From NCBI RefSeq assembly GCF_000016665.1, contig NC_009523.1:5207501-5271500 (forward strand): a stretch of 64,000 bases of DNA, in the 5' to 3' direction. This stretch comes from Roseiflexus sp. RS-1. GTDB taxonomy: Bacteria; Chloroflexota; Chloroflexia; Chloroflexales; Roseiflexaceae. The notes under the pieces were generated by a model. It saw nothing but the letters and a program-made list of their open reading frames with translations. It was not told where the DNA came from and ran no database searches. The first letter of the stretch is position 1, and every line of letters starts with the position of its first letter. Below, in pieces: positions 9,551 through 60,564 of the stretch. A program made the translations under genes and the position numbers.

Positions 9551-9590
9551 GCACAACCTTCAACCTTCAACCTTCAACCTTCACCCCACA
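9551..9590. repeat. short heptamer array (TTCAACC units)
   Basis: Five to six 7-bp units of the form TTCAACC/TTCACCC lie in the gap between the divergent aceB and aminotransferase genes. This is the reverse complement of the GGTTGAA dialect found at 24.7, 36.7, 58.0 and 59.7 kb. Apart from this array nothing recognisable was seen between 9401 and 9710. Confidence 0.8.
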
Positions 9591-18517: not shown

Positions 18518-19744
18518 TTATGCTTCTTCAGGTCCGGCGACAATCCCTTCATCGTGCAGTTTCCCGACTTCGCCTTCGCTCAAGCCGAGCACCTCTAGCA
18601 GGATCTCGTCGGTGTGCGCGCCGAGGCGGGGCGCCGGTTGCGGCGGCAACCGCGGCACAGTGCTGAAATCGAGCGGCGAACCCGGCATCAGGTAGGCGCC
18701 GATGCCGGGTTGATCCACCAGCGCGAACATCGGGTTGTCCGTCGAACAATCAGGGTCATGGGCGATGGCTTCGCGCACGGTGCGGTAGGGTCCCCACGTC
18801 ACGCGATGCTGCTCGAAGATGCGCTGCACGTCGGCGAAGGTGCGTGCGTGGAACCACGGTTCCAGCAGTGCGGCGATCTCACGTCGCGCGCGGAAACGGT
18901 CTCCCTCATCGTCCATGTTGAGACCCAGACGCTCACCGAGCGCATTGAAGGCATCGGTCAGCCCCGTCGCCTTGCCCAGCGCCTTCCATTGCAGGTCGGT
19001 CAATCCCACCACCATCACCCGTTTGCCATCGAGGGTCTCGAAATCGCGCCCAAATGCGCCATACAGGTAATTTCCCTGTTTGGGGCGATCGGTGTCGTTG
19101 ACCATCACTTCGGCGATCATGCCGAGATTGCCGATCATCGCCAGCCCGACATCCTTCAACGCCAGTTTGACCAGTTGCCCCTCGCCGGTGAGCCGCCGGT
19201 GGCGTTCCGCCGCCAGCAAACCGAGTGCAATCATCTGACCGGTGACGATGTCCCATGCTGGCAACACGTGGTTGACCACTTCAGGCGATGAGAACGGACC
19301 GGTCATGAACGGGAGTCCCAACTGCGGATTGACGGTGTAATCGACTTCTGAGCCGCCATCCCGTCGCCCCAGCAGATTGACCATGATCAGGTCGGCGCGA
19401 TGCGCTTTCAGCGCGTCGTAACTGAGCCAGCCGCGCGCCGGGAAGTTCGTGATGAACAGCCCTGCATTGTCGCCGGGCGCGCAGATCAGGTGCGTCAGTA
19501 TCTCCTGCCCACGCGGGTGACGAATATCGACGGCGATTGATCGTTTCCCTTTGTTGAGACCAGCCCAGAACAGGCTATGCCTGCCGTCCAGCGTCACGGG
19601 CCAGCGCTTGTAGTCGAGTCCGCCGCCGATGGGATCGAAGCGAATGACATCGGCGCCAAGTTGCGCCAGGGTCATGCCGCCGAGCGGCGCCGCCACAAAC
19701 GCCGAACCTTCGACAACGCGCATTCCGCTGAGAATACCGTTCAT
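18518..19744 (-). CDS. mct: mesaconyl-CoA C1-C4 CoA transferase
   Basis: Class III (CaiB/Frc-type) CoA transferase moving CoA within mesaconate from C1 to C4. With the ATG at 19744 the protein has 408 residues and begins MNGILSGMRVVEGSAFVAAP, a normal family start. The frame stays open upstream only because a heptamer repeat array there lacks stops. The likely catalytic aspartate is about Asp165 in PAWDIVTGQM. The divergence from the two SmtA/SmtB paralogues in this cluster and the position beside mcl support Mct. The start lies 13 bp from the edge of the repeat array, and the SD is a modest GGAG. Confidence 0.93.
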   Translation of the reverse strand: MNGILSGMRVVEGSAFVAAPLGGMTLAQLGADVIRFDPIGGGLDYKRWPVTLDGRHSLFWAGLNKGKRSIAVDIRHPRGQEILTHLICAPGDNAGLFITNFPARGWLSYDALKAHRADLIMVNLLGRRDGGSEVDYTVNPQLGLPFMTGPFSSPEVVNHVLPAWDIVTGQMIALGLLAAERHRRLTGEGQLVKLALKDVGLAMIGNLGMIAEVMVNDTDRPKQGNYLYGAFGRDFETLDGKRVMVVGLTDLQWKALGKATGLTDAFNALGERLGLNMDDEGDRFRARREIAALLEPWFHARTFADVQRIFEQHRVTWGPYRTVREAIAHDPDCSTDNPMFALVDQPGIGAYLMPGSPLDFSTVPRLPPQPAPRLGAHTDEILLEVLGLSEGEVGKLHDEGIVAGPEEA

Positions 19745-19757
19745 TGTACGTTTCTCC

Positions 19758-19890
19758 GAGCCGAGAACCGAGAACCGGGAACCGAGAACTGAGAACCAGG
19801 AACCAGGAACCGAGAACTGAGAACCAGGAACCAGGAACCGAGAACTGAGAACCAGGAACCAGGAACCGAGAACTGAGAACCAGGAACCGG
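19758..19890. repeat. heptamer array, GAACCGA/GAACTGA/GAACCAG dialect, 19 units
   Basis: Nineteen uninterrupted 7-bp units (133 bp) of GAACCGA, GAACTGA, GAACCAG and GAACCGG. The four-unit group GAACCGA-GAACTGA-GAACCAG-GAACCAG repeats about four times as a 28-bp higher-order period. The array occupies the mct upstream region. The same dialect on the opposite strand recurs at 34400-34532, also with 19 units. Confidence 0.95.
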
Positions 19891-22811: not shown

Positions 22812-23072
22812 GAGCCTCCCTCCGCATCATTACGAAATCTACGGCTTGCTGCAGGTATGCACTGATCGTCGTCGGACGGATAATGGTCTTTGAATAAATG
22901 ACTTCGCTGCAAAAACGCACCGCTGAGACGCCGAGCGCACAGAGAGTCAAAAAAACGAACCATGATAGATGTACGGCGCAGCATACGGGTGCGTGACTCG
23001 CTATGGAATCACCCCTGCGAACGCTGCGTCGCTGCGGTGACATCCCCTTTGTGCAGTGGACTCATAAATAAT
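22812..23072. other. gene-free stretch upstream of smtA
   Basis: No coding region is convincing here. The stretch must hold the smtA promoter on the minus strand, but no clear -35/-10 pair stood out. It is followed by the 68-bp and 48-bp repeats and then by about 360 bp of unassigned sequence before meh. Confidence 0.4.
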
Positions 23073-23256
23073 CCGGTAGAGCCCGCGCAGGCGGGCTTTG
23101 CCTTGTCTAGCCGAGGGCTTATGATCTTTAAGAATTAAGTCCGGTAGAGCCCGCGCAGGCGGGCTTTGCCTTGTCTAGCCGAGGGCTTATGGTCTTTGAG
23201 TAAATAATCCGCTACAGCCCGCGCAGGCGGGCTTCGCCTTGGCTAGCCGAGGGCTT
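23073..23256. repeat. 68-bp tandem repeat with GCCCGC/GCGGGC palindrome, about 2.7 copies
   Basis: Units start at 23073, 23141 and 23209 with a 68-bp period; the third is cut by the start of the 48-bp array. Each contains the hairpin AGCCCGCGCAGGCGGGCT (6-bp stem, GCAG loop) followed by TAGCCGAGGGCTT. The same unit occurs twice at 24891-25006, on the other side of meh. Confidence 0.92.
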
Positions 23257-23496
23257 CAGCCCCACGGCTAGCGCGGGATAGCGGAATAAATTCTCAATCT
23301 CCATCAGCCCGACGGCAAAGGGCGCATACCGGTTTATATTCTTCATCTCCATCAGCCCCACGTCTCGTTCGGTAGAGCGGATTATATTCTCAATCTCCAT
23401 CAGCCCCACGGCACAAGGCGTATACCGGATTAAGTGCTCAATCTCCATCAGCCCCACGGCACAAGGCGTATACCGGATTAAGTGCTCAATCTCCAT
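23257..23496. repeat. 48-bp tandem repeat, five copies
   Basis: Five 48-bp units start at 23257, 23305, 23353, 23401 and 23449, each running from CAGCCCCACGG to CTCAATCTCCAT. Units 4 and 5 are identical and the others diverge in the middle. Because 48 is a multiple of 3, the minus strand stays open and would spell a 16-residue repeat, but there is no start site or family support for a protein. Single units occur at 25007-25054 and 53828-53875. Confidence 0.93.
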
Positions 23497-23858
23497 CATC
23501 CATCCTGAAGCTCGCTGTCACGCAAAAAGAAGCGCATCTCTTCGTGCATACGATGTGCGCGATGCCCCATGGTATCGGGTATGCCTGGCGGACGTGCAGC
23601 GCTGTGCAGGAAAGTCGTGGGATCATGTTCGCAAGATACGAAGAATAGTGTACCATATGAGGAAAAGACGGGTAACATCAGGTATAGAATTGTTAACCAT
23701 CCCCCCGGCATTTCTGTACGATACTTTTCCACAAGCATGCTCGTTTTCATCACCAGGTGACAGCAACCGTGTGGCTCATGGATAGGGCGCTGCACCATGC
23801 GCGCAAATACACGCGCCAGGGTTGCATCAGCGTACATCAGAGCACGGAAGGAGGCGCT

Positions 23859-24707
23859 ATGACATCAGAAGACTGGACAGCCTGGATCGGTCGGACGGAG
23901 CAGGTTGAGGACGACATCAGCCCGGCGCAGGCGGCAGCGGCGGCGGCAACGCTTGAACCACCCCCGCCGTTACCAATGAAAGGCTCGGCGCTGCCACCGC
24001 TCTGGCACTGGTTCTACTTCCTGCCTCGTGCACCGCAGTCACAACTCGGCATAGACGGGCATCCGCAACGTGGCGGTTTCATCCCCCCTATCCCTTACCC
24101 GCGTCGCATGTTTGCCGGCGCGCGCATCCGCTTTCACCATCCGCTCATCATCGGGCAACCTGCCCGACGCGAGGGGGTTATCCGCAATGTCACCCTGAAA
24201 TCGGGACGCAGCGGTCCACTCGCATTCGTCACGGTCGGCTACGATATCTACCAGGAGAACACGCTGTGCATTGAAGAGGAACAGGATATTGTGTACCGCG
24301 AGCCGGGCGCTGCCGTGCCTGCGCCTGTGCCGATCGACCTGCCGCCGCCGCCGGAGGGTGCATGGGTCCGTACCGTTACGCCGGATACGCGCCTTCTTTT
24401 CCGCTTCTCGGCGCTGACGTTCAATGCCCATCGCATCCATTACGACCGACCCTACGCCCGCCATGAAGAAGGGTATCCGGGGTTGGTCGTCCACGGACCG
24501 TTGACCGCTGTCATGCTCATGGAACTGGTGCGCCACAACACCGCTCGCCCGATTGTCGGCTTCAGTTTTCGCAGCCAGGCGCCACTGTTCGACCTGGCGC
24601 CATTTCGGTTGATCGCCCGCCCCGATGGGGATCGCGTCGAACTGGAGGCGCAGGGACCCGACGGCGCAACGGCGCTCAGCGCTGTGGTGGAACTGGGGGA
24701 GAGTTGA
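23859..24707 (+). CDS. meh: mesaconyl-C4-CoA hydratase
   Basis: Hydrates mesaconyl-C4-CoA to (S)-citramalyl-CoA, the step before cleavage to pyruvate and acetyl-CoA in the 3-HP bicycle. 282 residues from the ATG at 23859, which has GGAAGGAGG upstream; the frame is open further back but without support. MaoC-like double hot-dog fold: N-terminal half with LPPLWHWFYFLP, C-terminal half with the hydratase motif LTFNAHRIHYDRPYA and GYPGLVVHGPLTA. Its stop codon TGA lies inside the first unit of a heptamer repeat array. Confidence 0.94.
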   Translation: MTSEDWTAWIGRTEQVEDDISPAQAAAAAATLEPPPPLPMKGSALPPLWHWFYFLPRAPQSQLGIDGHPQRGGFIPPIPYPRRMFAGARIRFHHPLIIGQPARREGVIRNVTLKSGRSGPLAFVTVGYDIYQENTLCIEEEQDIVYREPGAAVPAPVPIDLPPPPEGAWVRTVTPDTRLLFRFSALTFNAHRIHYDRPYARHEEGYPGLVVHGPLTAVMLMELVRHNTARPIVGFSFRSQAPLFDLAPFRLIARPDGDRVELEAQGPDGATALSAVVELGES

Positions 24708-24801
24708 GGGTTGTAAGGTTGAAGGTTGAGGGTTGAAGGTTGAAGGTTGAAGGTTGAAGGTTGAGGGTTGGACGTTGAATGTTGAACGTTGAACGTTCAA
24801 C
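24703..24801. repeat. heptamer array, GTTGAAG/GTTGAGG dialect, beginning on the meh stop
   Basis: About 14 units of GTTGAAG, GTTGAGG, GTTGAAC and similar, with one 8-bp unit. The first unit (24703-24709) contains the meh TGA. The array ends in GTTCAACGCTGTAGG. It and the following 68/48-bp repeats fill the gene-free 24708-25056. Confidence 0.92.
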
Positions 24802-24890
24802 GCTGTAGGAGCGAGGTAGTGAGGAGCAGGGTAAAGGAGAAGGCAAGCGATCAAACCCCTGACTCCTGCTATGGTTGTTGAGCAATTATT

Positions 24891-25054
24891 CCGCTATAGC
24901 CCGCGCAGGCGGGCTTCGCACTCTATAGCCGAGGGCTTATGGTCTTTGAAGAAATAATCCGCTACAGCCCGCGCAGGCGGGCTTCGCACTCTATAGCCGA
25001 GGGCTTTAGCCCCACGGCCAGTTCGGTATACCGGATTTAATTCTCAATCTTCAT
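24891..25054. repeat. composite repeat: 68-bp units followed by one 48-bp unit
   Basis: 68-bp units start at 24891 and 24959, each with the GCCCGC-GCAG-GCGGGC palindrome; the second is cut short and one 48-bp unit (25007-25054) follows. This is the same order as at 23073-23496. The 48-bp unit ends two bases before the start of a transposase-like ORF. Confidence 0.9.
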
Positions 25055-34399: not shown

Positions 34400-34532
34400 G
34401 GTTCCCAGTTCCCGGTTCCCGGTTCTCAGTTCTCAGTTCTTGGTTCCTGGTTCTCAGTTCCCGGTTCTCGGTTCTCAGTTCTCAGTTCTCAGTTCTCAGT
34501 TCTTGGTTCTCGGTTCTTGGTTCTCAGTTCTC
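34400..34532. repeat. heptamer array, GGTTCTC/AGTTCTC/GGTTCCC dialect, 19 units
   Basis: Nineteen uninterrupted 7-bp units, 133 bp. This is the reverse complement dialect of 19758-19890. It lies between the endonuclease stop (34391) and the transporter ATG (34540), leaving almost no other sequence in the gap. No ribosome site is visible within it. Confidence 0.95.
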
Positions 34533-34539
34533 ACACCTC

Positions 34540-36675
34540 ATGCTTGCTGCCTTGCAGAAATTCCCCGCAACAATCGCGCGTCCTGTAGAGGTCGTGCGCG
34601 GCTATTCTCTCGAGACTCTGCGCGCCGACCTGGTAGCAGGCATAACCGTCGGGCTTGTGCTGCTGCCACAGGCGCTGGCATTTTCGCTCCTGGCGGGTCT
34701 GCCGCCGGAAATGGGGTTGTACTCCGCTATCGTCGCTTCAATCGTTGGCGCGCTCTGGGGATCATCGAGCCATCTGCACACCGGTCCGACGAATACGGCA
34801 TCCCTGCTCACCCTCTCGGTCATCCTGCCGCTCGCCACGCCTGGCACGCCTGAGTTTATTGCCGCAGCTGGCATGCTTGCGATCCTCGCCGGTGCGCTGC
34901 GCCTTGCCTTCGGTCTGGCGCGCCTGGGACTGCTGGTCAACTTCGTTTCCGACTCGGTCGCCGTTGGGTTCACAGCAGGCGCCGGCATTCTCATTATGTC
35001 CAATCAAATTGCGCCGATCCTGCGAATCGATCTTCCGATGGGTGCAAGTCTGGTCGATACGTTTGTTCTGAGTGCAGCCTCTATCGAACGCACCCACCTG
35101 CCGAGTCTCATCCTGGGTGTCGCAACCATCGTTCTCATTGCGGCGCTTCAACGGGTTCAGCGTCGCCTGCCGACCTTGCTCATCGCGCTGATCATCGTGT
35201 CCCTGGTCGCCTGGATGCTGCGCCTGGAGGAAGCCGGTGTGCGCACCCTGGGGGCGCTGCCGCAGTCGCTCCCTCCGTTCGCCAATCTGCCGCTCTTCGA
35301 TCTGAATCTGATTGGCGCACTGGCAAATGGTGCGCTGGCGGTCGCCATCATCGGGTTGGTGGAAGCATCGGCAATTGCTCGCGCGATAGCGACCCACTCG
35401 CAACAACGCCTCGACAGTAATCAGGAGTTTATCGGACAGGGGCTGGCAAACATCTGTGCCGGTCTGTTTTCGGGATATCCGTGCTCCGGGTCGTTCAACC
35501 GGTCGGCGCTCAGTCTTCAGGCAGGTGCGCGCACCGGTATGGGCAATGCATTTTCCGGAATCTTCGTCCTCCTGGCAATATTCCCGCTCGCGCCGCTCGT
35601 AGCGCACTTGCCGCGTCCGGTGCTGGCAGGCGCGCTGGCAATCACCGCCTGGAGCATGGTCGATTACCGGGCAATTGCTCGCATCTGGCGCGCTGATCGC
35701 ACCGATGGGGCGATTTCGCTCATCACCCTGGCGGCGACCCTTCTCGTTCCACTCCAGTTTGCCATCATCAGCGGCGTCCTCATGTCGCTCGGCGCATATC
35801 TGTGGCGCACCAGCGCGCCGCGGGTGCAGAGCGTGCTGCCAGATGCCGACTTTCGCCACTGGGAGTATCAACCGCATCTGCCGATGTGCCCGCAACTGGC
35901 GGTTGTCGATGTGCTTGGCGATCTCTACTTCGGCGCCGTCAACCACGTCGAAGAGCAGATGAACGCATTGATGACCCAAAATCCGTCGCAGCGGTTTCTC
36001 CTGTTGCGGATGCACAGCGTCCAGCGTTGCGACATCAGCGGCATCAAAATGCTCCAGATGATTGTGCGCCAGTACCGTGACCGCGGCGGCGGCGTCTATT
36101 TTGTGCGTGTGCGCCCGCCGGTGCGTCAGATCATGGACGTCTCCGGTTTTACGCAGTACGTGGGGGAAGACCATTTTCTGGACGAAGACCATGCCATCGA
36201 CTATCTCTTCCATCGCGTGCTCGATCCGGCAGTCTGCATTTATGAGTGTGAAGTGAAGGCGTTCCGCGAATGTCAGAACCTGCCGAAGCGTCCGTTGCCC
36301 GCCGAAGCCATTCCGCTCCTGCCGACAAACGTCGCCCCGGCGCCGGGTTCAACCATTGAGCCGCGCGAATTGTGGCGTCAGATCCGCAGTGCATCCCCGC
36401 CGCGCGTCATCGATGTGCGCGAGCCGCGTGAGTACCGTCAGGGGCACATTCCAGGCGCGGAGTTGCTGCCGCTCTACGAACTGCTGACCAATCCCGATCA
36501 GGTAAGCCGTGACCGACCTGTCGTCCTGGTTTGCCGGAGTGGGCACCGAAGCGAACGCGCCGCAGCCGCGCTGCTGAGTCGCGGGTTTGGTCGAGTGACC
36601 ATTCTGAGCGGCGGTATGCTGGCGTGGGAAGCCAGTGATCTGCTGATGGCGGTGGAGTTTGGGGGGGAACGTTGA
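34540..36675 (+). CDS. SulP-family anion transporter fused to STAS and rhodanese domains
   Basis: About 711 residues. A SulP/SLC26 membrane domain (about 10-420) has the signatures VLLPQALAFSLLAGLPPEMGL, HTGPTNTASLL and LFSGYPCSGSFNRSAL. A STAS domain (about 440-560, VVDVLGDLYFGAV, RMHSVQRCDISGIKML) follows, then a C-terminal rhodanese domain (about 610-705) with VIDVREPREYRQGHIPGAE and an intact catalytic loop CRSGHRS. The rhodanese suggests sulfur handling linked to sulfate or thiosulfate import (inference). The frame is open through the upstream array; the ATG at 34540 is the first after it, but no SD is evident. The TGA stop lies in the first unit of the next array. Confidence 0.88.
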   Translation: MLAALQKFPATIARPVEVVRGYSLETLRADLVAGITVGLVLLPQALAFSLLAGLPPEMGLYSAIVASIVGALWGSSSHLHTGPTNTASLLTLSVILPLATPGTPEFIAAAGMLAILAGALRLAFGLARLGLLVNFVSDSVAVGFTAGAGILIMSNQIAPILRIDLPMGASLVDTFVLSAASIERTHLPSLILGVATIVLIAALQRVQRRLPTLLIALIIVSLVAWMLRLEEAGVRTLGALPQSLPPFANLPLFDLNLIGALANGALAVAIIGLVEASAIARAIATHSQQRLDSNQEFIGQGLANICAGLFSGYPCSGSFNRSALSLQAGARTGMGNAFSGIFVLLAIFPLAPLVAHLPRPVLAGALAITAWSMVDYRAIARIWRADRTDGAISLITLAATLLVPLQFAIISGVLMSLGAYLWRTSAPRVQSVLPDADFRHWEYQPHLPMCPQLAVVDVLGDLYFGAVNHVEEQMNALMTQNPSQRFLLLRMHSVQRCDISGIKMLQMIVRQYRDRGGGVYFVRVRPPVRQIMDVSGFTQYVGEDHFLDEDHAIDYLFHRVLDPAVCIYECEVKAFRECQNLPKRPLPAEAIPLLPTNVAPAPGSTIEPRELWRQIRSASPPRVIDVREPREYRQGHIPGAELLPLYELLTNPDQVSRDRPVVLVCRSGHRSERAAAALLSRGFGRVTILSGGMLAWEASDLLMAVEFGGER

Positions 36676-37090
36676 AGGTTGAAGGTTGAAGGTTGCAGGT
36701 TGAAGCGTTGAAGGTTGGGACGTTGAGCGTTGAACGTTGAACGTGGAAGGTTGGGACGTGGAACGTGGAACGTTGGGACGTTGAACGTTGAAGGTGGAAG
36801 GTTGAAGGTTGCAGGTTGCAGGTTGAAGCGTTGAAGGTTGGGACGTTGAGCGTTGAAGGTTGGAGCGTTGCAGGTTGAAGCGTTGAAGGTTGGGACGTTG
36901 AGCGTTGAACGTTGAACGTTGAACGTGGCAGGTTGGGACGTTGGAGCGTTGAACGTTGAACGTGGCAGGTTGCAGGTTGGGACGTTGAAGGTTGGAACGT
37001 TGAACGTTGCAGGTTGGGGCGTTGAGCGTTGAGGCGTTGAGCGTTGAACGGATTAGGATGTTGAACGTTGAATATTGAACGGTAGAACGT
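36671..37090. repeat. long heptamer/octamer array, GTTGAAC/GTTGAAG/GTTGGGAC dialect
   Basis: About 420 bp and more than 50 units of the form GTKGnnn with occasional 8-bp units (GTTGGGAC, GTTGAAGC, GTTGGAGC). Blocks such as GTTGAAGC-GTTGAAG-GTTGGGAC-GTTGAGC recur three times, showing higher-order duplication. It begins on the stop codon of the SulP gene and ends just before the SD of the GlpX-like gene, filling the whole gap. Confidence 0.95.
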
Positions 37091-57974: not shown

Positions 57975-58050
57975 GTTGAACGTTGAAGGTTGAAGGTTGG
58001 AACGTTGAAGGTTGGAAGGTTGAACGTTGAAGGTTGGAAGGTTGAACGTT
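57975..58050. repeat. heptamer array, GTTGAAG/GTTGGAAG dialect
   Basis: About ten 7-8-bp units (GTTGAAC, GTTGAAG, GTTGGAAC, GTTGGAAG), with a block GTTGAAC-GTTGAAG-GTTGGAAG repeated twice. It lies between the divergent FAD-oxidoreductase and Uma2 genes, about 50 bp before the Uma2 start. Confidence 0.92.
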
Positions 58051-58101
58051 AAGGTGGTACTATACTGATGCAGGAATCCGGTCGGTATGTGAGGAAGGCG
58101 C

Positions 58102-58729: not shown

Positions 58730-59671
58730 ATGCGTTTCAGATTGCTGATATTTCTTCTGCTGGCGCTACTCCTCGTCGCATGCGCGCAGCAGCCGACACG
58801 TTCCGGTCAGGTGACGCCGGTCTTTGCCTTCACCGAAGCGGTTGTGGGTCCGAACCGCATTGCGCTGGGTCTGATTCGCGATGGTTCGCCGGTCAATGAT
58901 CCGGGTGCGAAGATTCACCTGCGCTTCTTCGATCTGAACGATACCAGTTCACCGGTCAGATTCGAGACCGATGCGATCTACTACGGTCAGGGGCTTCCCG
59001 CAGCCATCTACGTCGCCTATCCGACGTTCGACCGGGCGGGGAGTTGGGGGATCGAGGTGCAAACAACCCTCAGCGGTCAATCAGAACCGACGGTCGCACG
59101 CCTGCGTCTCGAAGTCAAAGAACGTTCGGATGTACCGAATGTCGGCGATAAGGCGATACCTGTCAAAACGTTGACTGTGCGTGATGTGCCCGATCCGTCA
59201 TATCTTTCGTCTGGTCGGGTCGACGATCTTTCGATGTACCAGATCAGCCTGGATGCAGCGTTGCAGAACGGCAAGCCGACGGCGCTGCTGTTTGCGACGC
59301 CAGCGTTCTGTCGCACGGCAGTGTGCGCTCCCAGCCTGGGTGTGATGCAGGAGTTGCAGAAAACCTACGGCGATCGCATCAACTTCATCCATGTCGAGGT
59401 TTTCCGCCATCCGTTCCGTGAGTCGTTCGAGGCGCAATCCGCAGTCTTCCAGAAACTGGCGCAGGAAGGGCGCGCCCCCACACTCGAAGAGCGCAACGTA
59501 GGGCTTTCCGATCCAATGATCGCCTGGGGATTGCAATCGGAACCGTGGTTGTTCCTGATCGACGCGAATGGCACGATTGTCGCCCGGTATGAGGGGGGCA
59601 TCACCCGTGAGGAAATGACCCCAGCACTGGAGAACCTGATCGCTGGCAGACCGCCGCGGGGCGGGAGTTAA
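58730..59671 (+). CDS. lipoprotein with C-terminal thioredoxin-like domain
   Basis: 313 residues from the ATG at 58730 (AAGGA seven bases upstream). The lipobox LLLVAC gives an anchor Cys at about 19. The N-terminal half (25-150) is a beta-sandwich-like domain of the YtkA/IgG-like type. The C-terminal half has a thioredoxin-like fold with PAFCRTAVC, where the two cysteines are separated by four residues instead of two, so a disulfide reductase role is uncertain. It may bind copper or act as a chaperone (inference). Its TAA stop overlaps that of the convergent gene on TTAA and a heptamer array starts there. Confidence 0.83.
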   Translation: MRFRLLIFLLLALLLVACAQQPTRSGQVTPVFAFTEAVVGPNRIALGLIRDGSPVNDPGAKIHLRFFDLNDTSSPVRFETDAIYYGQGLPAAIYVAYPTFDRAGSWGIEVQTTLSGQSEPTVARLRLEVKERSDVPNVGDKAIPVKTLTVRDVPDPSYLSSGRVDDLSMYQISLDAALQNGKPTALLFATPAFCRTAVCAPSLGVMQELQKTYGDRINFIHVEVFRHPFRESFEAQSAVFQKLAQEGRAPTLEERNVGLSDPMIAWGLQSEPWLFLIDANGTIVARYEGGITREEMTPALENLIAGRPPRGGS

Positions 59672-60564
59672 AGGTTGTAAGGTTGTAAGGTTGAAGGTTG
59701 TAAGGTTGAAGGTTGTAAGGTTGAAGGTTGAAAGTTGGAACGTTGAAGGTTGAGGGTTGAAGGTAGGAACGTTGAACGTTGAAGGTTGAACGTTGAACGT
59801 TCAACGTTCACCCCCCCCGCTGCCTGCACAAATGCCTGGAACACCCGCGACCAGCGTGGATCGGCGCCGTTCCATAGCATCTCCGGGTGGCATTGCACGC
59901 CTACGACCCATGCCGATGATCCTGCTTCGACCGCTTCGATGACGCCATCCGGAGCGCGAGCAGTGACGCGCAACGCTGACGCGACGTCGCGCAGCGCCTG
60001 GTGGTGCAGCGTATTGACCATCGCTTCGGTTGCACCGAGCAGATCCGCCAGCCGTGAGTCGGAATCGATAAGGACCGGATGCGCCAGGTATCGCATGTCC
60101 TGCCGGTCGGTCGACTCATTATGGTTCAGAGCGCCTGGAATTTCTGAAGGGATGTCCTGGTATAACGTGCCGCCACACGCGACATTCAGGAGTTGAATAC
60201 CGCGACAGATCGCCAGGATCGGCTTCCCATCCTGGAGCGCACGTCGGGTCAGTTTGATCTCGACATCGTCCTGCAACGGATCGGGGTTGCCCAGTCGCGG
60301 ATGGCGCGGGGCGCCGTAGGATGCGGGATCGATATCTTCACCGCCAGCCAGGAGCAATCCGTCGATCTGCTGGTAGAGCGTGTTCAGCACATCATCATTT
60401 GTGGTGAGATGGATGAGCATCGGGGCGCCTCCGGCTGCTTCGACTGCCTGGAGATAATCAATAACGTTCCCGTAGATTTTGGGAAACCAGGCGTCGTCTC
60501 GGGCAAAGTGGGCGATACCAACCAGGCATGGAACGCCGATGATCGGGCGGTGCGCGTGAGACAC
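59668..60564 (-). CDS. class I glutamine amidotransferase-like peptidase C26 with repeat-encoded tail
   Basis: 298 residues from the GTG at 60564 (AAGGAG upstream). Peptidase C26/PuuD-type: IIGVPCLV, LLLAGGEDIDP, the nucleophile elbow ILAICRGIQLLNVACGG, and GVQCHPEM for the His-Glu part. Probably hydrolyses a gamma-glutamyl compound. The enzyme domain ends near residue 252 (QAFVQAAGG). The last 46 or so residues are read from the heptamer array and spell repeats such as STFNLQR and STLQP, so the original stop has been lost or the array entered the gene end. An upstream open frame to 60918 lacks a start. Confidence 0.88.
   Translation of the reverse strand: MSHAHRPIIGVPCLVGIAHFARDDAWFPKIYGNVIDYLQAVEAAGGAPMLIHLTTNDDVLNTLYQQIDGLLLAGGEDIDPASYGAPRHPRLGNPDPLQDDVEIKLTRRALQDGKPILAICRGIQLLNVACGGTLYQDIPSEIPGALNHNESTDRQDMRYLAHPVLIDSDSRLADLLGATEAMVNTLHHQALRDVASALRVTARAPDGVIEAVEAGSSAWVVGVQCHPEMLWNGADPRWSRVFQAFVQAAGGVNVERSTFNLQRSTFLPSTLNLQRSNFQPSTLQPSTLQPSTLQPYNL
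59673..59810. repeat. heptamer array, GGTTGAA/GGTTGTA dialect
   Basis: About 19 units of GGTTGTA, AGGTTGA and GTTGAAC type beginning directly after the stop of the lipoprotein gene. It lies within the 3' end of the convergent amidotransferase gene, so it is both intergenic repeat and coding sequence. It ends with AACGTTGAACGTTCAACGTT, a near-palindromic stretch. Confidence 0.92.

Follow-up and report, generated by a model that had tools for sequence, protein, structure and literature searches.

Overlap between heptamer repeats and the stop codons of genes is already published in kind (PMC4679880, PMC4692102). According to MacGregor 2015 (PMC4679880), the forward TAACTGA repeats of marine Beggiatoaceae overlap coding ends by up to 18 nt because all frames are stopped, and reverse repeats are found inside ORFs. 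The G-rich heptamers of Xanthomonas and Nostoc, GGGAATC and GGGGA(C/T)T, lie within 50 bp of a stop with a preference for the coding strand, and also up to 50 bp upstream of ORFs, there on the non-coding strand; some of them overlap the stop (PMC4692102). The cyanobacterial STRR, e.g., those of Calothrix PCC 7601, are likewise dispersed tandem heptamers with different units, as far as they are covered by their citation in PMC4692102.

The GTTGAnn arrays that we describe here share several traits with the TAACTGA repeats of PMC4679880: a seven-base unit, one strand that stops all three frames, overlap with the stop of the upstream gene (for TAACTGA, from a single partial repeat up to two full ones), and the use of the stop-free strand within ORFs. 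There are also differences. The TAACTGA repeats have another unit, occur in two to six copies, and lie mostly upstream of start codons; their stop overlap amounts to 13 listed cases, whereas it is the dominant position of the GTTGAnn arrays. A homologue test of gene-end drift was done for the GTTGAnn arrays, and the sections of PMC4679880 consulted contain none for TAACTGA. The Xanthomonas and Nostoc repeats of PMC4692102 resemble the GTTGAnn arrays in being heptamers on the coding strand near the stop, with some stop overlap. Unlike these repeats, which form G-quadruplexes with their GGG or GGGG, the fixed part of GTTGAnn has no such run, and the strand split involves two separate families of units. 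For lack of GGG in the GTTGAnn unit, G-quadruplex formation was dropped from consideration. A literature search, from which subscription papers were mostly out of reach, returned no earlier description of these heptamer units or of heptamer repeats in Roseiflexus. The additions made here are the tightness of the association, the drifting protein tails, and the existence of a mirror family near start codons.

The window is the whole stretch of DNA that was analysed, 64,000 nucleotides corresponding to bases 5,207,501-5,271,500 of the single 5,801,598-base chromosome of RS-1, our label for the source genome of an organism that is probably Roseiflexus. The sample comprises 118 stretches including the window, in total 2.375 Mb or 41% of the genome. 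It consists of 20-kb pieces around arrays located by pattern and of a contiguous 1.055 Mb picked regardless of arrays, which is the unselected control. The pattern that chose the targeted stretches slightly favours sharp array starts; the unselected megabase gives an agreeing share of arrays at codirectional gene ends (19 of 34), matching that of the whole sample. Genes of the RS-1 sample were called with a home-made procedure based on a codon-pair score, and arrays were defined by at least three exact GTTGA units at heptamer spacing. The relatives used for comparison belong to the same genus (G001 and G005) or to the same family (G006 and G009), with G009 representing another genus. Homologues were searched with the last 64 residues of 30 array-ended RS-1 genes only, against G001, G005, and G006.

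A period of 7 characterises 209 of the 235 tandem-repeat calls in the 2.375 Mb, and three-unit matches across the whole genome number 244 + 290. The unit of the sampled arrays is GTTGAnn, mainly GTTGAAG or GTTGAAC, and not TAACTGA; as in the long heptanucleotide SSRs of prokaryotes, it is a tandem seven-base unit with many copies per genome. The 2.375 Mb contain 143 such arrays (family I). They are mainly intergenic, 135 of them lying outside called genes. In phase-variation SSRs (contingency loci), a change in copy number switches the expression of the gene that bears the repeat; the arrays here are found mostly after reading frames rather than within them. The window has five GTTGA arrays, of which two (57975-58052 and about 9553-9585) touch no same-strand gene end. 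The other three begin at gene ends, as the initial annotation had noticed, and direct reading places all three stops in the first unit of the array. The same annotation took each of these stops to be a TGA within GTTGAnn; this holds for two of them, and the third is a TAA in the variant unit GTTAAAG. The features of the window are as follows:

9553-9585, minus strand: short GTTGAnn array away from stops, in a divergent gap
19761-19889, minus strand: family II array (GAGAACC on the plus strand), separated by about 17 nt from the start of the downstream gene at 18518-19744 (minus strand)
23859-24704, plus strand: sense codons of the dehydratase-like gene meh, 282 aa (PF13452, FAS1_DH_region, a FAS1/MaoC-like dehydratase region, E 7e-05)
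24703-24797, plus strand: GTTGAnn array, family I, whose unit 1 contains the stop of the upstream dehydratase-like gene
24705-24707, plus strand: TGA stop of meh, inside GTTGAGG (24703-24709), array unit 1
34401-34533, plus strand: family II array (GTTCYYR), ending 6 nt short of the start codon (ATG, 34540) of the SulP gene
34540-36672, plus strand: sense codons of the SulP transporter gene (Pfam Sulfate_transp + STAS + Rhodanese, E 7.7e-86)
36671-37086, plus strand: GTTGAnn array, family I, 3' of the SulP gene
36673-36675, plus strand: TGA stop of the SulP gene, inside the GTTGAAG starting at 36671, array unit 1
57975-58052, plus strand: GTTGAnn array away from stops, 49 nt before a codirectional start and beside the start of a divergent gene
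58730-59668, plus strand: sense codons of the thioredoxin-like gene (PF13098, Thioredoxin_2, E 1.3e-07)
59667-59810, plus strand: GTTGAnn array, family I, with variant unit 1 GTTAAAG
59669-59671, plus strand: TAA, the stop codon of the thioredoxin-like gene, in array unit 1 (GTTAAAG)

The ends of these three genes vary among relatives. The dehydratase-like protein terminates identically in RS-1 and G001 (GES-stop) and as ...GTLNVEG-stop in G005. The SulP homologue of G005 is without an array at this place and stops 5 residues earlier than that of RS-1 (LLMAIG-stop). The TAA of the thioredoxin-like gene (genome 5267167) corresponds to TAT in G001, where the protein is 3 residues longer.

The initial annotation had left open whether, genome-wide, arrays begin at stops more often than random intergenic placement would produce. 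In the 2.375 Mb, such placement predicts that 2.0 of the 135 non-genic arrays have their start in the interval from -40 to +7 nt around a codirectional stop. We found 75, so the starts are not random and chance placement was rejected. Keeping each array in its own gap raises the expectation to 22.7 (sd 2.7). The possibility of a short-gap artefact was rejected with the 40 arrays that have 200 nt or more of free downstream sequence: 24 of these start in the same interval around the stop (0.84 expected), and 28 start within 21 nt of it. The strand is equally constrained. In gaps between same-direction genes, GTTGA lies on the coding strand in 90 arrays and on the other strand in 16 (p = 1e-13). 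Beside 3' ends, codirectional and opposed arrays stand at 62:3 when they overlap the stop and at 29:3 when they start 0-21 nt past it. Arrays lying farther away show no codirectional bias (2:5 and 9:17), and the strand bias is therefore confined to stop-adjacent arrays. The second genus, G009, has 18 arrays, and 13 of these extend over a codirectional stop, mostly in unit 3, a class that is favoured by detection with three exact units.

The in-frame stop can be assigned to a unit of the array in 51 exact cases, and falls in units 1, 2, and 3 in 24, 16, and 11 of them, an unevenness that is not significant (p = 0.08). Because stops are found in any of the three units, the array provides a stop in whichever frame it is entered. 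As in the TAACTGA type of repeat, one strand carries stops in all frames and the ends of ORFs are overlapped by the first units only. The array-encoded tails, shared by unrelated proteins, are correspondingly few in kind: none or a single residue (GT-stop), VEG or VER followed by the stop, and LKVEG or LNVER followed by the stop. VEG is the commonest C-terminal tripeptide, with 28 of 1500 genes of the array-enriched sample against 2.7 expected; SAP comes second in this sample (14 of 1500 genes). Stops located before arrays (20 TGA, 6 TAG, 3 TAA) are near the genomic composition (842, 384, and 315, respectively), and the starts of exact units peak at +2 nt (9 cases), where the stop is in register with the array. 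The last 9 nt before arrays contain 50% G, against 36% for all genes; by eye, and judging from array-free homologues, these G-rich codons look like degenerate array units and not like a target site. Altogether, 91 of the 1541 sampled genes have arrays at their ends (approximately 6%, in an array-enriched sample), and their functions are mixed.

Of the homologues, 24 of 29 from G001 and 12 of 27 from G005 carry at least two GTTGA units at the corresponding gene end. The gene end has no GTTGA unit in 11 of the 27 G005 homologues and in all 15 from G006. These array-free homologues mostly stop only a few residues away from the RS-1 end, usually slightly earlier: the RS-1 protein is the longer one in 7 of 11 comparisons with G005 and in 12 of 15 with G006, usually by a few residues. 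Since they end near the same place and are usually slightly shorter, the RS-1 genes have been capped or extended, not truncated. The reading of array-ended genes as truncated was rejected on the same lengths, which show no bad truncation. The suggestion of the initial annotation that arrays replaced the 3' ends of genes, which it tied to an alignment of C termini, thus survives in a mild form: ends have moved into the array, which encodes the stop and the 0-6 codons before it. The stops of the array-free homologues are 7 TGA, 3 TAG, and 1 TAA in G005, and 14 TAG and 1 TAA in G006; the preference for TAG in G006 (14 of 15) is unusually strong. The loss of a native stop can be followed in the gene with an array at 5082825, where G005 has a TAG beside the array. 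This codon is TCA in RS-1 and TCG in G001, and both proteins end at the array TGA five codons later. Relative to G005, a changed C-terminal length was found in 19 of 27 array-ended genes versus 7 of 28 controls (p = 0.001). The comparison with the closer relative G001 gives 9 of 30 versus 5 of 39 controls, which is not significant (p = 0.13).

Within genes, all six arrays made of real units, distributed over four genes, are in the stop-free orientation and are translated as heptapeptide repeats of the QPSTFNL type; two called intragenic matches in the opposite orientation are not array-coded. The intragenic arrays lie at genome positions 522321, 1561084-1563375, 4222806, and 5572939, and some are interior to glycosyltransferase-like proteins. 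A second family of arrays, family II (GTTCYYR), is the mirror of family I at start codons. Its 3' edge falls between -10 and +14 nt of a codirectional start in 24 of 67 arrays (2.0 expected), and 11 arrays abut opposed stops (1.8 expected). A few ATG start codons use the last A of the array, and a Shine-Dalgarno sequence was not visible by eye in many of the starts preceded by family II. With family I in sense near stops and the purine-rich strand of family II in antisense near starts, RS-1 follows the strand rule reported for unrelated phyla in PMC4692102.

Strand, position, frames, tails, and the comparison of homologues are direct observations. We propose, as the best-supported explanation and with a probability of roughly 0.68, that arrays adjoining gene ends make the native stops dispensable and that gene ends drift into the array. 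The dispersed seven-base tandem repeats lie directly at gene 3' ends, with GTTGA on the coding strand. As 7 is not a multiple of three and there is a TGA in every unit, such an array acts as an all-frame stop, and any frame entering an intact array meets a stop within three units (19 nt). A native stop beside it would become dispensable and could be lost by point mutation or overwritten. The gene end would then move into unit 1, 2, or 3, gaining a short tail, and changing units could let it drift later. We infer the order of these events, in which the array comes to lie beside the stop first and the native stop is lost afterwards. On the evidence of the aligned sequences, the arrays seem to sit at ancestral gene ends and to have taken over the stop, for which a TGA seed is not needed. 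We count against drift that it leaves unaccounted for the 29:3 codirectional bias of arrays lying wholly past the stop (0-21 nt). The excess of unit 1 and the peak at +2 nt, the length-change excess relative to G001 that falls short of significance, and the home-made gene calls also weigh against it.

The initial annotation had offered growth from natural TGA stops as one explanation. Slippage from a (T)TGA seed accords with the 24 of 51 exact cases in which the stop is in unit 1 and with the nine arrays at +2 nt, whose stop is in register with the following units; this excess and this peak indicate that some arrays may be TGA-seeded. As a general route, slippage is largely refuted and seems to us very unlikely: 27 of 51 stops lie in the second or third unit, array-free homologues often end in TAG or TAA (4 of 11 in G005, 15 of 15 in G006), stops before arrays have close to the genomic mix, and the units of different arrays are too similar for independent seeds. 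Pure survivorship would have arrays land anywhere and selection keep the harmless ones, i.e., intragenic arrays in the stop-free orientation and sense arrays confined to the final codons. It fits the orientation of the six intragenic arrays and the lack of bad truncation among array-ended proteins, but it predicts many arrays farther out and in both orientations, yet 28 of the 40 large-gap arrays are within 21 nt of the stop and the ratio just past the stop is 29:3. This explanation is disfavoured, and we regard it as unlikely. Selection against broken proteins explains the orientation of overlapping and intragenic arrays and explains neither the 29:3 bias nor, in large gaps, the closeness of arrays to stops; candidates therefore still include a directional origin and a retained function.

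Array formation could be actively directed to gene ends and polarised, with the G- or purine-rich strand laid outward from the gene. It would leave GTTGAAG after stops and GAGAACC in antisense before starts, e.g., by an end-extension or template-switch linked to transcription or replication. We see this as possible, at clearly less than even odds. The bias and the hugging hold for arrays that lie wholly beyond the ORF, with 29:3 at 0-21 nt, but are absent farther out, family II mirrors them at starts (24 of 67 versus 2.0) and reads outward from opposed stops (11 versus 1.8), and the G-rich heptamers of Xanthomonas and Nostoc obey the same strand rule (PMC4692102). Against it, no enzyme or intermediate was identified, nothing at the DNA level recognises the stop codon as such, and most arrays are old and common to G001 (24 of 29), so that present positions are not insertion positions. 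The broader proposal is more doubtful still: that a directional process lays heptamers outward from both gene ends, whose boundaries guide or seed the repeats (GTTGAnn past stops, antisense GAGAACY past starts), and that the repeats then become the stop and occasionally contribute a base to the start codon. Maintenance of the arrays as functional 3' elements, acting as a translation safety stop or in RNA stability or termination, is in turn improbable. Conservation at 24 of 29 G001 sites argues for it, and all-frame stops would limit readthrough, but only about 6% of the sampled genes (91 of 1541, in an array-enriched sample) have such ends and their functions are mixed, 11 of 27 G005 homologues have no GTTGA unit there, and tails and lengths drift. 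Of the three readings in the initial annotation (targeting, seeding, and replacement of 3' ends), taken jointly, a part is thus upheld, and targeting to gene ends retains the 29:3 bias that selection against broken proteins leaves unexplained.

The drift of gene ends into arrays would show a non-coding repeat assuming the role of a basic coding signal, with native stops lost and repeat-supplied stops in their place. Many unrelated proteins would be given the same short tail, and gene ends would be made mobile. In the contiguous 1.055 Mb, 23 of 34 arrays lie no more than 21 nt from a stop; scaled up to the genome, this suggests considerably more than a hundred such gene ends. The findings also make testable the old question of why heptamer repeats in bacteria follow gene boundaries and strand.

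A shared interspersed sequence (CCGTTCGCTCATTTTT.TGACG.ATGGCTTCCTGATGCGAT) lies directly 3' of the arrays at genome positions 363246, 1818990, 2526270, 4182071, and 5168013. The distal ends of two arrays of the window (24771-24805 and 59767-59803) contain the palindrome GTTGAACGTTCAAC, a potential hairpin. At 23065-23498 of the window, units of 68 and 48 bases containing CCCGCGCAGGCGGGC are arranged in tandem, and they recur near 24890-25010.
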